Source: Deltaproteobacteria bacterium (lineage in GTDB: Bacteria; Bdellovibrionota; Bacteriovoracia; Bacteriovoracales; Bacteriovoracaceae). From it: 54,281 bases of DNA. The DNA lies in the NCBI GenBank assembly GCA_006226755.1, contig SBGE01000223.1:1-54281 (forward strand). The letters run 5' to 3'. The position numbers were made by a program, and so were the translations under genes. A model generated the notes under the pieces. That model saw only the letters and a program-made list of their open reading frames with translations. It searched no databases and was not told where the DNA came from. This document shows, piece after piece, positions 39,636-43,776 of this stretch. Every line of letters starts with the position of its first letter. The first letter of the stretch is position 1.

Positions 39636-40286
39636 TTAGAACGAATACATCCCGGTGATCATCAACTTAGCATAGGAACCTTCAACTTCGGGACCTAGGT
39701 CTTGTTTGACATCAAACGGGTTGTGTAGCTTTGCCAGAATTCCTGTCGTAAAATTTCTGTTCAGTCTGAGCTCCGCTCCGACACCGACGTGCCAACCGAA
39801 AGAGGTTTTCGTTTCAGATTCTTGAAGAACTCCATTCACATATCTTTTGACCTTTGGTTGATAAAAACCAAGACCACCAGTTGCGAAAGGAGCAAAAGCA
39901 TCAAATTGATAGACTTTAGCTTTGATTCCAAGACCGAGCCCTGTCGTACGCACCCATTGTTGTCTGAACGAATGCTTGTTCGAATGGAAATCAGCAATGA
40001 AATCGAAAGAGTGACTGGCAGAATAAGTATAAAGTAGATCCCAAGTAATTTTGTCTTCGCCGTAATCATCAAACTTTCCTCTTAGAAAGGTTTGACCGAT
40101 TCCGACACCAACAGAATGAACTTTGACTGCTCCTGGAACTCTAGGTTCAGCAGAGACAACTCTTGGTTCAGTTTTTTTGGTTTCTTTTTTCTCGACGGCT
40201 TCTTCTGCGCCAAAAGCAAAACTGGTTCCGATCATAAAAACTATGACCGGAACCAGCTTCTTATTGAAATTCAATGAAAAAGGCAT
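39636..40286 (-). CDS. Outer-membrane beta-barrel protein
   Basis: The 216-residue protein has a Sec signal (NKKLVPVIVFMIGTSFAFG, cleavage before AEEA), a short charged linker with a repeated PRV motif, then alternating hydrophobic/aromatic strands: VHSVGVGIGQTFLRG, ITWDLLYTYS, SFDFIADFHS, AFAPFATGGLGFY, WHVGVGAELRL and LMITGMYSF. The C-terminal Phe is the usual signal for outer-membrane assembly. About eight strands are predicted by eye. It starts the run into the ArsA-like pair, with a 3-bp gap to the first ATPase, suggesting a shared process at the envelope. Confidence 0.75.
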   Translation of the reverse strand: MPFSLNFNKKLVPVIVFMIGTSFAFGAEEAVEKKETKKTEPRVVSAEPRVPGAVKVHSVGVGIGQTFLRGKFDDYGEDKITWDLLYTYSASHSFDFIADFHSNKHSFRQQWVRTTGLGLGIKAKVYQFDAFAPFATGGLGFYQPKVKRYVNGVLQESETKTSFGWHVGVGAELRLNRNFTTGILAKLHNPFDVKQDLGPEVEGSYAKLMITGMYSF

Positions 40287-40329
40287 TTTACCAGATCCCT
40301 TTTAAAGGATTAATACAACCTCTCTAAGC

Positions 40330-40728
40330 TTAGTTCAAAGTGCTTGGAGTTTCAATTGTTGTATTAAGATCTGTGTTCTGCATGAAAGGCTTGAAACCTT
40401 CAGTAGCAGTTGTCTCAGCAGCAACTTCAGGAGCTTCAACACCTTCAAGGCTTCTGATATATCCAGTAAATGTACCTTCAGTGCTTCTGATAACTCTCTT
40501 AAGAAGCTCAACATCACCAGCTTTAGTTGATTTTCTTTCTTGATCAAAAAGAAGCTGAATTTGAGTCATGTATGTGATGTCGTTCTTAGTTTTGTTGTCG
40601 ATTACCTGAATCTCGTGACCTTCTCTGATGATCTGAGCGATCTCTTCAAGAGTCACATAACAGCTTTGATGTGTGTCATAAAGCTTTCTGTTTTGGTACC
40701 TTTTGATAATTCTAACGTCATTCATCAT
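40330..40728 (-). CDS. PhaR-like PHB/PHA accumulation regulator
   Basis: The protein of about 132 residues opens with RIIKRYQNRKLYDTHQSCYVTL, the PHB_acc_N DNA-binding signature, then EEIAQIIREGHEIQVIDNKT and DITYMTQIQLLFDQE. In PHA-producing bacteria PhaR represses phasin genes and senses polymer granules. No phasin or PHA synthase is in the window, so another target is possible. Start 40728 is favoured because GGGG lies 5 bases upstream; the ATG at 40752 is too far from it. It ends 43 bp before the outer-membrane protein gene on the same strand. The C-terminal 40 residues are Glu/Ala/Thr-rich and variable. Confidence 0.85.
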   Translation of the reverse strand: MMNDVRIIKRYQNRKLYDTHQSCYVTLEEIAQIIREGHEIQVIDNKTKNDITYMTQIQLLFDQERKSTKAGDVELLKRVIRSTEGTFTGYIRSLEGVEAPEVAAETTATEGFKPFMQNTDLNTTIETPSTLN

Positions 40729-40794
40729 TCTTTCCCCTATTTTTGGATGCAAGTTTTGTTTACTTACAAACTGATAATTTTCAAATCCGTTGTG

Positions 40795-41140: not shown

Positions 41141-41263
41141 ATCATAGGCCCTGCATCAATCGTTCCCAGCTTTCGCTAAGACTTTTATTGAAAAGGTCGA
41201 AAAGATGATAAATAGGGGCTTCAGGTATGGAGCCGTATAATCCTATGGAAAGGAATGATTCAG

Positions 41264-43141
41264 ATGAATAAAGCTACGATCCTGATTCTTTTGTTGCCGA
41301 TGTCGCTACTTGTTTCATGTGCAACGGGGTCGAAATCAAAAGACATTCAAAAAGTAGAAACTCCTGTTGCCCAAGTCGATCCAGGCGAGGCCTTAAAGCA
41401 AGCTGCTGAAAAACTAGATAAGCTCGCTGACGAAGCCAGAAAGTCGGGTCCAGAAGCTGTTCGCTATTTGGCAACTGACCTATATCTCAAGGCGACAGAT
41501 GCTTCGATCAGAGGCGATGCTCAAACCGCAGTTTTTCTTTATAAGCATGTTCACTCACTTGTCCCAGATGATGTTTACATAAAAAAGAAATATGCTGTTG
41601 AGTTGATTAGAGTTGGTGATCTTGAGAGTAGTGAGAGCCTACTTAGTGATGTTTACAAAGCCGAAAAAGATGAAAACGTTGGTTTGATTTTGGGTGGTGT
41701 TTACACTGCACTCGATAAAACCAAAGAAGCCAGAGTAACTTATCGTTCTGTGATGAAAGACCATCCTAAGAGTGAAGAGGCCTGTGTTTTTCTCGCAAAA
41801 TCATTTGCTTTGAGTAAGGACAAGAAAGAAGCCTATAAGCTTTTGGATAGCTGCGAAGCCAAGATCAAAGGCAAAGCAATTTTTAGTTACTTCAAAGGGA
41901 AAATGGCCGTCGATGAAGGAAATAAGAAAACTGCGATGAAGTATTTCCAGCATTCTTTGAAAGTCGACAGAAATTATCACCAGTCTGTTATTGCCATTGG
42001 ACTTCTTCATGAGGAAAAAGAGCAGTATGATAAAGCGATTGGTGTATACGAAAAGTTTTTGAAAGTTGAGCCAGAAAATTTTCCAGTACTATCAAGACTT
42101 GTTCAGATTCTTTTTGCTACGGGTAAGTATGATCAAGTTGTTCGTTATGCTGAGAAGCTTTCAAGTCTTGACCAGTCGGATCTCAATCTAAAAGTCAGAC
42201 TAGGAATCCTTTATACTGATAAGAAAAGATTCAATGATGCCATTGGTGTCTTCAAAGAAATACTTGAAGCAGTTCCTGGGTCAGACAAAATTCTTTATTA
42301 CTTGGGAAGCCTCTATCAGCAAATTGATAAATTTCATGATGCAATCGGCTACTTCTCAAAAATTGAAAGTGCCAGTACCTTATTTCACGATTCTCATGTT
42401 CAAATCGCTCAAATGTTGCAGGCGATGGCCCAAGAGAAACAAGATCAAGAAAATAAATTTGTTGAATTCGTTAACGAAAAATCAAAATCCAATGACAAGT
42501 TGAAATTGGAATTGGGTGTGATGTTGACTGGATACTGGGAAGGAAAGAGTCAGTACGAGAAAGCCATTGTTGTTCTCGATGACCTCAAGTCTCACGAAGG
42601 TTATACGGAAGGACATGAATATTACAGAGCTTCTCTTTATGAGAAGAATAAGCAATTCGATGATGCGAGAGACATCATAGAAAAAATGATTGAGAAAAAT
42701 CCTGAGAATCCACATGCTTTGAACTTTCTTGGGTACTCTATGCTGGAGAGAAATGAAGATCTTGAAAAGGCCTATGTGCTAATCAAGAAAGCCGTTGATC
42801 TCAAGCCTGAAGATGGATTCATCAGAGATTCGCTAGGATGGTATTACTATAAGGTAGGAAAGCTTGATCTTGCACTTCAAGAAATCAAGAAGGCATGGGA
42901 ATTGGTGAAAGATGATGTTGTCATCACGAAGCACCTTGCCATTATCTACAAGGAAATGGAAAAATACGACGAAGCTAAGAAGTACTATATGGAGGCTTTG
43001 AAGCATTGCAAACTCGAAAGCGAAAAACAAGATGTCTTGAAAGAACTGGAAGATTTGGAAAATGTCAGACTACCAGCTTCGAAGGACAAGCAAGATGTAG
43101 TGAAGGAGCCCCGTACAACGGACGCTCCTTCCTCCAATTAA
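41264..43141 (+). CDS. TPR-repeat outer-membrane lipoprotein (type found upstream of lolB)
   Basis: The product of about 625 residues has a lipoprotein signal (MNKATILILLLPMSLLVSC, lipidated Cys19) and about ten TPR units across residues 70-600, for example around DKAIGVYEKFLKVEPENFPV and DDARDIIEKMIEKNPENPHA. Near the end comes ALNFLGYSMLERNEDLEKAY, then IRDSLGWYYYKVGKLDLALQEI. That GY...SLGWYYYKVG pattern is the one seen in TPR proteins encoded next to lolB in Betaproteobacteria. Start 41264 is preferred because AAAGGA lies upstream; ATG 41255 abuts it. The C-terminus is Lys/Asp-rich. It probably acts as a scaffold at the envelope. The next lipoprotein gene follows or overlaps. Confidence 0.85.
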   Translation: MNKATILILLLPMSLLVSCATGSKSKDIQKVETPVAQVDPGEALKQAAEKLDKLADEARKSGPEAVRYLATDLYLKATDASIRGDAQTAVFLYKHVHSLVPDDVYIKKKYAVELIRVGDLESSESLLSDVYKAEKDENVGLILGGVYTALDKTKEARVTYRSVMKDHPKSEEACVFLAKSFALSKDKKEAYKLLDSCEAKIKGKAIFSYFKGKMAVDEGNKKTAMKYFQHSLKVDRNYHQSVIAIGLLHEEKEQYDKAIGVYEKFLKVEPENFPVLSRLVQILFATGKYDQVVRYAEKLSSLDQSDLNLKVRLGILYTDKKRFNDAIGVFKEILEAVPGSDKILYYLGSLYQQIDKFHDAIGYFSKIESASTLFHDSHVQIAQMLQAMAQEKQDQENKFVEFVNEKSKSNDKLKLELGVMLTGYWEGKSQYEKAIVVLDDLKSHEGYTEGHEYYRASLYEKNKQFDDARDIIEKMIEKNPENPHALNFLGYSMLERNEDLEKAYVLIKKAVDLKPEDGFIRDSLGWYYYKVGKLDLALQEIKKAWELVKDDVVITKHLAIIYKEMEKYDEAKKYYMEALKHCKLESEKQDVLKELEDLENVRLPASKDKQDVVKEPRTTDAPSSN

Positions 43142-43776
43142 TTTTTCTCACCCTCCTTTTTTCCTCCTGTTCACACTTCAAATCAAAAAATTTATCGACT
43201 TCCAAACAGTTTCATCAATCTGTTACAAAGTTCTGCTTTTCTGGTGAAGGAAAAGGGCGAATTCAATTAAGAAACAACAAATATCTTTTTCGATATGAAT
43301 CAGTTCTCAACCAGCAAGAGAAGACTTGGCAATTGGCCTTTAATATCCCCGTTCATGGGGAGGAGTTAATTGAACTCGATTGGAATAAAGAACTTCGAGT
43401 GAACGGAAAGTTTTATGGAAGATTACTGGCCCAGACAAGACAAATGAAAAACGGGGAAGAGCAGAGAATGCTATTAAAGAAGTTTTTGCATTTCTTGGTC
43501 GACATGGGAAAACTTTCGAATGCTAAAATTGAAGATCTTTCATGTGATGAAAAATCTTGTAAGGCCTTTGATCAGCAGTGGGCATGGAGTCAAAAGGACT
43601 CCAACTTTACTGTGACGCAAAAACTTAATGACAGACATCTTCTTGTTGCAAAGGGTTATGAAACTGGTGAAAACTTCTTTGGAAAGTTGACATTTTCAGT
43701 CGAAGATACTGAAAACTCTCAAGCCGTCTCAAAAGACCTTGCACTTAGTCTCTTTGCCACTAGCTGCGATCGCTAA
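43006..43776 (+). CDS. Putative LolB-like lipoprotein (start codon uncertain)
   Basis: The mature part, from the lipobox FSSC (SFLQLIFLTLLFSSC), is about 200 residues. It starts SHFKSK, then FCFSGEGKGRIQLRN, YLFRYESVLNQQEKTWQLAFN and IELDWNKELRVNGK. This alternating pattern resembles the LolB beta-sheet that receives lipoproteins and inserts them in the outer membrane, and the upstream TPR gene is the usual lolB neighbour. The only normal in-frame start is TTG 43006, which overlaps the TPR gene by 136 bp and puts 54 residues before the Cys. An ATT at 43141, overlapping the TPR stop by one base, would give too short a signal. Family assignment is moderate. Confidence 0.55.
   Translation: MQTRKRKTRCLERTGRFGKCQTTSFEGQARCSEGAPYNGRSFLQLIFLTLLFSSCSHFKSKNLSTSKQFHQSVTKFCFSGEGKGRIQLRNNKYLFRYESVLNQQEKTWQLAFNIPVHGEELIELDWNKELRVNGKFYGRLLAQTRQMKNGEEQRMLLKKFLHFLVDMGKLSNAKIEDLSCDEKSCKAFDQQWAWSQKDSNFTVTQKLNDRHLLVAKGYETGENFFGKLTFSVEDTENSQAVSKDLALSLFATSCDR

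Follow-up and report, generated by a model that had tools for sequence, protein, structure and literature searches.

At the locus described here, the frame of a putative outer-membrane lipoprotein emerges from the end of the gene in front of it, and the arrangement raises two questions, namely where its translation begins and whether its product is a LolB. The window, i.e., the whole stretch of 54,281 nucleotides that was analysed, holds a TPR lipoprotein gene followed by an overlapping frame for a LolB-like lipoprotein, and both frames, already proposed by the first-pass annotation, were confirmed (Table 1). The former codes for 628 amino acids and contains RDSLGWYYYKVG, while the latter is open from stop to stop over positions 42979-43776.

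Table 1. Features of the TPR and lolB-like genes, in coordinates of the window
Feature	Position	Strand	Remarks
TPR lipoprotein gene	41255..43141	+	start ATG 41255 or, in frame, 41264; many TPRs; IRDSLGWYYYK motif
Shine-Dalgarno (SD) GGAGG of lolB-like gene	42991..42995	+	inside TPR gene, codons ATG-GAG-GCT
Putative start codon TTG	43006..43008	+	made by TPR His-Cys codons CAT TGC
lolB-like gene	43006..43776	+	256-codon precursor plus stop
Out-of-phase overlap of both genes	43006..43141	+	136 nt
Predicted signal peptide, 54 codons	43006..43167	+	long Arg/Lys-rich n-region in the overlap, then FLQLIFLTLLFSS
Hairpin GAAGGAGC...GCTCCTTC	43102..43131	+	directly before TPR stop
Mature LolB-like domain, Cys1 to Arg202	43168..43773	+	AlphaFold2, Foldseek
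P61-V62-H63-G64, predicted strand 3-4 turn	43348..43359	+	place of E. coli LolB NPLG loop (Leu68)

Beside the TPR gene, on the minus strand (39636-40752), lie an outer-membrane beta-barrel gene and a PHB/PHA accumulation regulator (PHB_acc_N). Near its C-terminus the TPR protein of the window carries RLPAS, followed by a tail of 19 residues; this R-(L/M/I)-P-A-S motif (window ~43067-43084) is strongly conserved at or near the TPR C-terminus, class-wide as well as in families f12 and f18, is kept whatever the overlap, and is perhaps a docking tail. The hairpin before the TPR stop has a counterpart in a congener (G001), where a strong hairpin of different sequence (GGAGCAGAAAA...TTTTCTGCTCC) occupies the same place; such hairpins are not general among class members, and a scan for terminator-like elements at the junction of the two genes gave nothing useful.

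Related loci were gathered with an alignment of the TPR protein, since that of the LolB-like protein offers no sufficiently conserved stretch, and the matches came mostly from Bacteriovoracaceae, Halobacteriovorax, Bdellovibrionales or their kin, most of the genomes compared being metagenome assemblies. Cultured members with the TTG form are represented by records named Bacteriovorax sp. BSW11_IV and DB6_IX. Searching for the TPR protein at class level returned the same 129 genomes as at family level. The LolB-like protein, with its mature domain kept, is present in 122 of these 129 family genomes, as is the TPR gene, and it occurs in 73/73 class genomes with completeness of at least 90% and contamination of at most 5%. 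The TPR gene lies upstream of the lolB-like gene class-wide. A total of 111 loci were parsed and aligned on the TPR C-terminus, and they fall into four layouts. In layout (i), with 51 loci, the lolB-like gene has a separate start near or after the TPR stop (48 ATG). In layout (ii), with 38 loci including the window, the lolB-like frame reaches back into the TPR gene in a different phase, and a single fixed position, the TPR codons E-A-L-K-N-C, hereafter site 1, carries TTG (36) or ATG (2). The 20 loci of layout (iii) also overlap out of phase, without a usable ATG, GTG or TTG, and two loci form layout (iv), with a TPR-internal ATG that belongs to the other phase. The overlap measures 52-139 nt across the overlap group and 82-139 nt in the TTG/ATG class. 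The two loci with an ATG in the other out-of-phase frame (L027 and L085, from genomes G028 and G104) represent an independent form of nesting. Likewise, in family f18 a LolB-like lipoprotein (L238:1339-2004) seemingly starts in the TPR gene, at an ATG ~97 nt before the TPR end, which suggests that the overlap either extends beyond the class or evolved a second time.

As to the nature of the product, a lipobox was found in all parsed loci, preceded by signal peptides of 29-59 residues in the class, and Cys1 is invariant in 36/36. The AlphaFold2 model of the mature protein (mean pLDDT 94.4, 11 strands, 3 helices) is a confidently predicted LolA/LolB-type fold, an unclosed beta-barrel with a helical lid. 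Its top matches in a Foldseek search against the PDB are LprG, LolA, RseB and Vibrio cholerae LolB (probability 0.5-1.0, low TM-scores of 0.3-0.47), with LprG and LolA rather than LolB at the head of the list; several LolA and V. cholerae LolB reach probabilities of 0.92-1.00 (E about 2e-3 to 2e-2, TM 0.35-0.47). The turn between strands 3 and 4 reads P-[LVIFM]-x-G, where position 62 is hydrophobic in 67/72, Pro61 is kept in 71/72 and Gly64 in 66/72. The turn takes the place of the NPLG loop of E. coli LolB, whose Leu68 is required for insertion (PMC11885536).

Searches by sequence gave a different picture. The PF03550 LolB profile had no match in the genome of the window, Pfam LolB recognised none of 72 members, and hhalign did not match the LolB-like protein to E. 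coli LolB or to the LolB of family f12; single-protein searches with Pfam, NCBIfam, PDB sequences and hhalign returned no LolB. The window's genome contains a LolA over the cut-off, and its matches to LolC/E-like permeases are all below the cut-off. Gene order adds a further line of evidence. In family f12 of the same phylum, which to our knowledge is outside the taxa usually credited with LolB, a TPR gene with a C-terminal PAS is followed, in three genomes, by a lipoprotein that exceeds the Pfam LolB cut-off and whose alignment with E. coli LolB spans 170 columns (E 3e-4), and a peptide-transporter gene lies downstream there as well as in the window. In this family, L231-L236 are LolB genes behind a TPR gene of the same kind.

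The ranking of LprG and LolA at the top of the Foldseek list and the lack of a LolB profile match would also fit a lipoprotein of the LolA/LolB/LprG/RseB fold that carries some other lipid or glycolipid and is not a sorting receptor. We consider this unlikely, though worth keeping in mind, given that the loop residue is hydrophobic in nearly all members, that the position behind the TPR gene equals that of the Pfam-recognised LolB in f12, and that every good class genome has the protein. The protein is LolB-like in fold, loop and gene position and not a LolB member by sequence. The LolB identity put forward by the first-pass annotation stands with respect to the fold, which has a LolB among its structural matches, the hydrophobic loop and the synteny with Pfam-recognised LolBs, and it falls short at the sequence level; the same three features support the presence of a LolB-like lipoprotein outside the Beta- and Gammaproteobacteria.

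The second question concerns the start. TTG 43006 is the sole ATG, GTG or TTG ahead of the lipobox in the lolB-like frame of the window, in agreement with the earlier observation that the only normal start lies 136 nt inside the TPR gene. The further claim that the gene has no ordinary start codon does not hold, as TTG 43006 is an ordinary one preceded by a GGAGG, and codon and GGAGG alike are conserved class-wide. The duplex energy of this SD is -9.3 kcal/mol; its distance to the TTG, 10 nt, is long and counts against it.

An NTG is found at site 1 of the alignment in 38 genomes, belonging to Bacteriovoracaceae and kin, and when synonymous codons are re-drawn the lolB-like frame is open by chance with a mean probability of 0.03 over the 38 genomes, and in 0/2000 re-drawings for the window, although the NTG and the open frame helped to define layout (ii) and are therefore partly circular as evidence there. 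Only one locus, G075, has an in-phase NTG at site 1 and a frame that is not open. Independent of the definition in that way are the results for the codons of the TPR gene. The glutamate codon of the SD is GAG in 35/35 class members, the median over 16 Glu columns being 0.31, and of 155 TPR columns no other reaches 97% conservation of the third base. At the start site, the TPR protein has a Cys in 38/38 loci of layout (ii) versus 1/51 of layout (i), and the codon before it in layout (ii) never ends in C, with AAT in 28/28 cases of Asn. In addition, the strength of the SD at site 1 has its median in the top 3% of same-phase positions in the gene. In two genomes, the lipobox Cys lies past the TPR stop by just 12 nt (G004) and 6 nt (G014), so near that the TPR gene has to contain the coding sequence of the signal peptide, and initiation at the stop is therefore excluded in both. 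We regard layout (ii) as direct evidence, of a comparative kind, for selection on the nested start and its SD, and initiation of lolB-like translation at TTG 43006 in the window is strongly supported by these alignments.

The relatives in layout (iii) extend this picture, since all 20 overlap loci without a usable NTG have ATT (19) or ATC (1) at fixed places of the TPR gene. In 17 of them an ATT, and in one (G075) an ATC, is found at a second site, the TPR codons E-D-V-L-K (aGAGGAcGT ATT AAA), whereas in G007 and G141 the ATT lies at the first site (site 1'), seven nt past GGAGG (GGAGGC). At many of these loci, in-frame stops just upstream rule out an earlier start. In the 14 species of genus g15, whose TPR identity goes down to 45%, no synonymous site is more constrained than the bases that make this ATT: among 83 four-fold columns, only that of the Val supplying the A has its third base fixed throughout, and among 43 Leu columns, only the one supplying TT is TTR in every case. 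Moreover, ATT or ATC is still kept where the TPR residues have changed (G068, G100 and G101, with Leu for Val, and G075, with Ile-Ser). The SDs of site 2 are weaker, moderate to weak (median -5.7 kcal/mol), while those of site 1' are strong. Over the 20 loci, the first-site SD codon is GAA in 10 and GAG in 6, and it is often GAA again after the move to site 2.

On a tree built on the TPR protein minus its last 60 residues, the overlap loci form one group (96% SH-aLRT), inside which lies one locus of layout (i), G010, and ATT at site 2 requires approximately four changes, at least two of them forced by well supported branches. The nested start thus appears to have moved, or turned into ATT or ATC, several times among the relatives. 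At L100 (G075), the TTG and the GAG SD codon of the old site remain, and an in-frame TGA three nt before the site-2 ATC cuts them off; this locus has the look of a relocated start whose former site is still visible, or of a short leader followed by reinitiation. Initiation on AUU or AUC in some 20 relatives is well supported, and the comparative evidence is strong, short of proof. Rare start codons, suggested earlier for the window, seem to be used by its relatives, at other places and within the TPR gene.

Other routes to the same protein have to be weighed against initiation at the nested site. A programmed -1 frameshift, producing a TPR-LolB fusion, would agree with the lolB frame being -1 relative to the TPR frame and with the conservation of the GTATTAAAA stretch in genus g15. 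It is nevertheless very improbable, as no slippery heptamer is common to the loci, and G111 (GTA TTA GAG) and G075 (ATA TCA AAA) keep ATT or ATC and not the slip sequence; furthermore, the lipobox is invariant, 51 relatives produce the protein from a separate start that is nearly always ATG, and frameshifting needs neither an SD nor a start codon. Slightly less credible still is the route envisaged by the first-pass annotation, in which ribosomes terminate at the TPR stop and reinitiate on ATT 43141 or an adjacent rare codon. In many overlap loci an ATT or ATA does coincide with the TPR stop, since TAAT is read as xTA ATx in the lolB-like frame, and the ATT of the window is just the TAA-TT of that stop, not conserved as a start; neither triplet is present there in G001, G004, G016 and G035. 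In the window, such a start would leave a signal of 9 residues without a basic residue, only 6-12 nt separate the lipobox Cys from the stop in G014 and G004, and the conserved upstream SD, NTG and open frame would remain unexplained. Lastly, that one protein was split by an error of sequencing or assembly, or that the gene has decayed, is conceivable for a draft genome of 309 contigs and has a negligible probability, since 58 parsed loci from separate genomes share the out-of-phase arrangement, which excludes the base-call error joining the frames that had been considered, and the mature domain is conserved as described above.

Taken as a whole, we assign a probability of about 0.7 to the reading that the window encodes a divergent LolB-like outer-membrane lipoprotein, translated from TTG 43006 with an SD inside the TPR gene. 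Ribosomes would initiate out of phase within the final ~45 TPR codons, an unusually long basic n-region would be encoded by the overlap, and signal peptidase II would cut at Cys 43168. The fold, the loop and the synteny suggest a mature protein that is anchored in the outer membrane, takes lipoproteins from the separate LolA and inserts them via its hydrophobic strand 3-4 loop. The nesting may couple LolB-like synthesis to the TPR mRNA, the weak start codon may keep its dose low, and a low, fixed ratio of the LolB-like protein to its TPR partner would be the simplest reason for the start staying in the TPR gene. AUU and AUC are codons discriminated against by IF3. It seems reasonably probable to us that a probably essential gene of outer-membrane biogenesis is started out of phase inside its neighbour, on AUU or AUC in several lineages, so that translation of a LolB-like receptor is held low and tied to both IF3 and the TPR partner.

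The conserved nested start, with ATT or ATC in relatives, resolves the "missing start" and is wider than the original observation. Gene callers will misplace or drop genes of this kind. With the protein in all 73 good genomes of this Bdellovibrio-related class and LolBs recognised by Pfam in a second family of the phylum, it becomes directly testable when LolB arose, orthologues on both sides of the ATT change are available for comparison, and an unusually long conserved gene overlap is now available to test.

Comparison with known systems places these features in context. With E. coli LolB (PF03550, 1IWM), the protein shares a size of ~200 amino acids, the lipoprotein nature, a beta-barrel with a helical lid in the predicted model, a loop between strands 3 and 4 in which Pro is followed by a hydrophobic residue (PVHG here, NPLG there) and a separate LolA in the genome; it differs in lacking any detectable similarity at the sequence or profile level, and in having two additional conserved Cys and a precursor with a 54-residue signal and a nested start. 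LolB has since been found by fold in Bacteroidota (PMC11885536), and the LolB1 and LolB2 described there were likewise identified from their fold and protruding loop instead of their sequence, and lie outside the Beta- and Gammaproteobacteria, although they belong to another phylum, have other gene neighbours and carry a C-terminal Lys-rich tail that is absent here. In the lbcA-lolB-ipk operon of Pseudomonas aeruginosa, a gene for a TPR outer-membrane lipoprotein directly precedes lolB (PMC6050968), which is the same order as here; in our case, however, the two genes share 52-139 nt out of phase in the overlap group, and the window has peptide-transporter genes downstream in place of ipk.

Few natural AUU starts are known, with two E. 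coli genes, infC and pcnB, as the examples (PMC9410913). The probable AUU initiation in ~20 relatives is of the same type, whereas the window itself uses TTG, and the present case differs in that it concerns an envelope-protein gene, with a start nested in another gene and changed several times in one class. Finally, a survey of 2008 accepted no real co-directional overlap of at least 60 bp among those analysed, the longest real one being holD-rimI, up to 56 bp (PMC2478687). The overlap described here is also conserved, co-directional and out of phase, but it spans 82-139 nt in the TTG/ATG class, with the SD and start conserved inside the upstream gene in 38 genomes.
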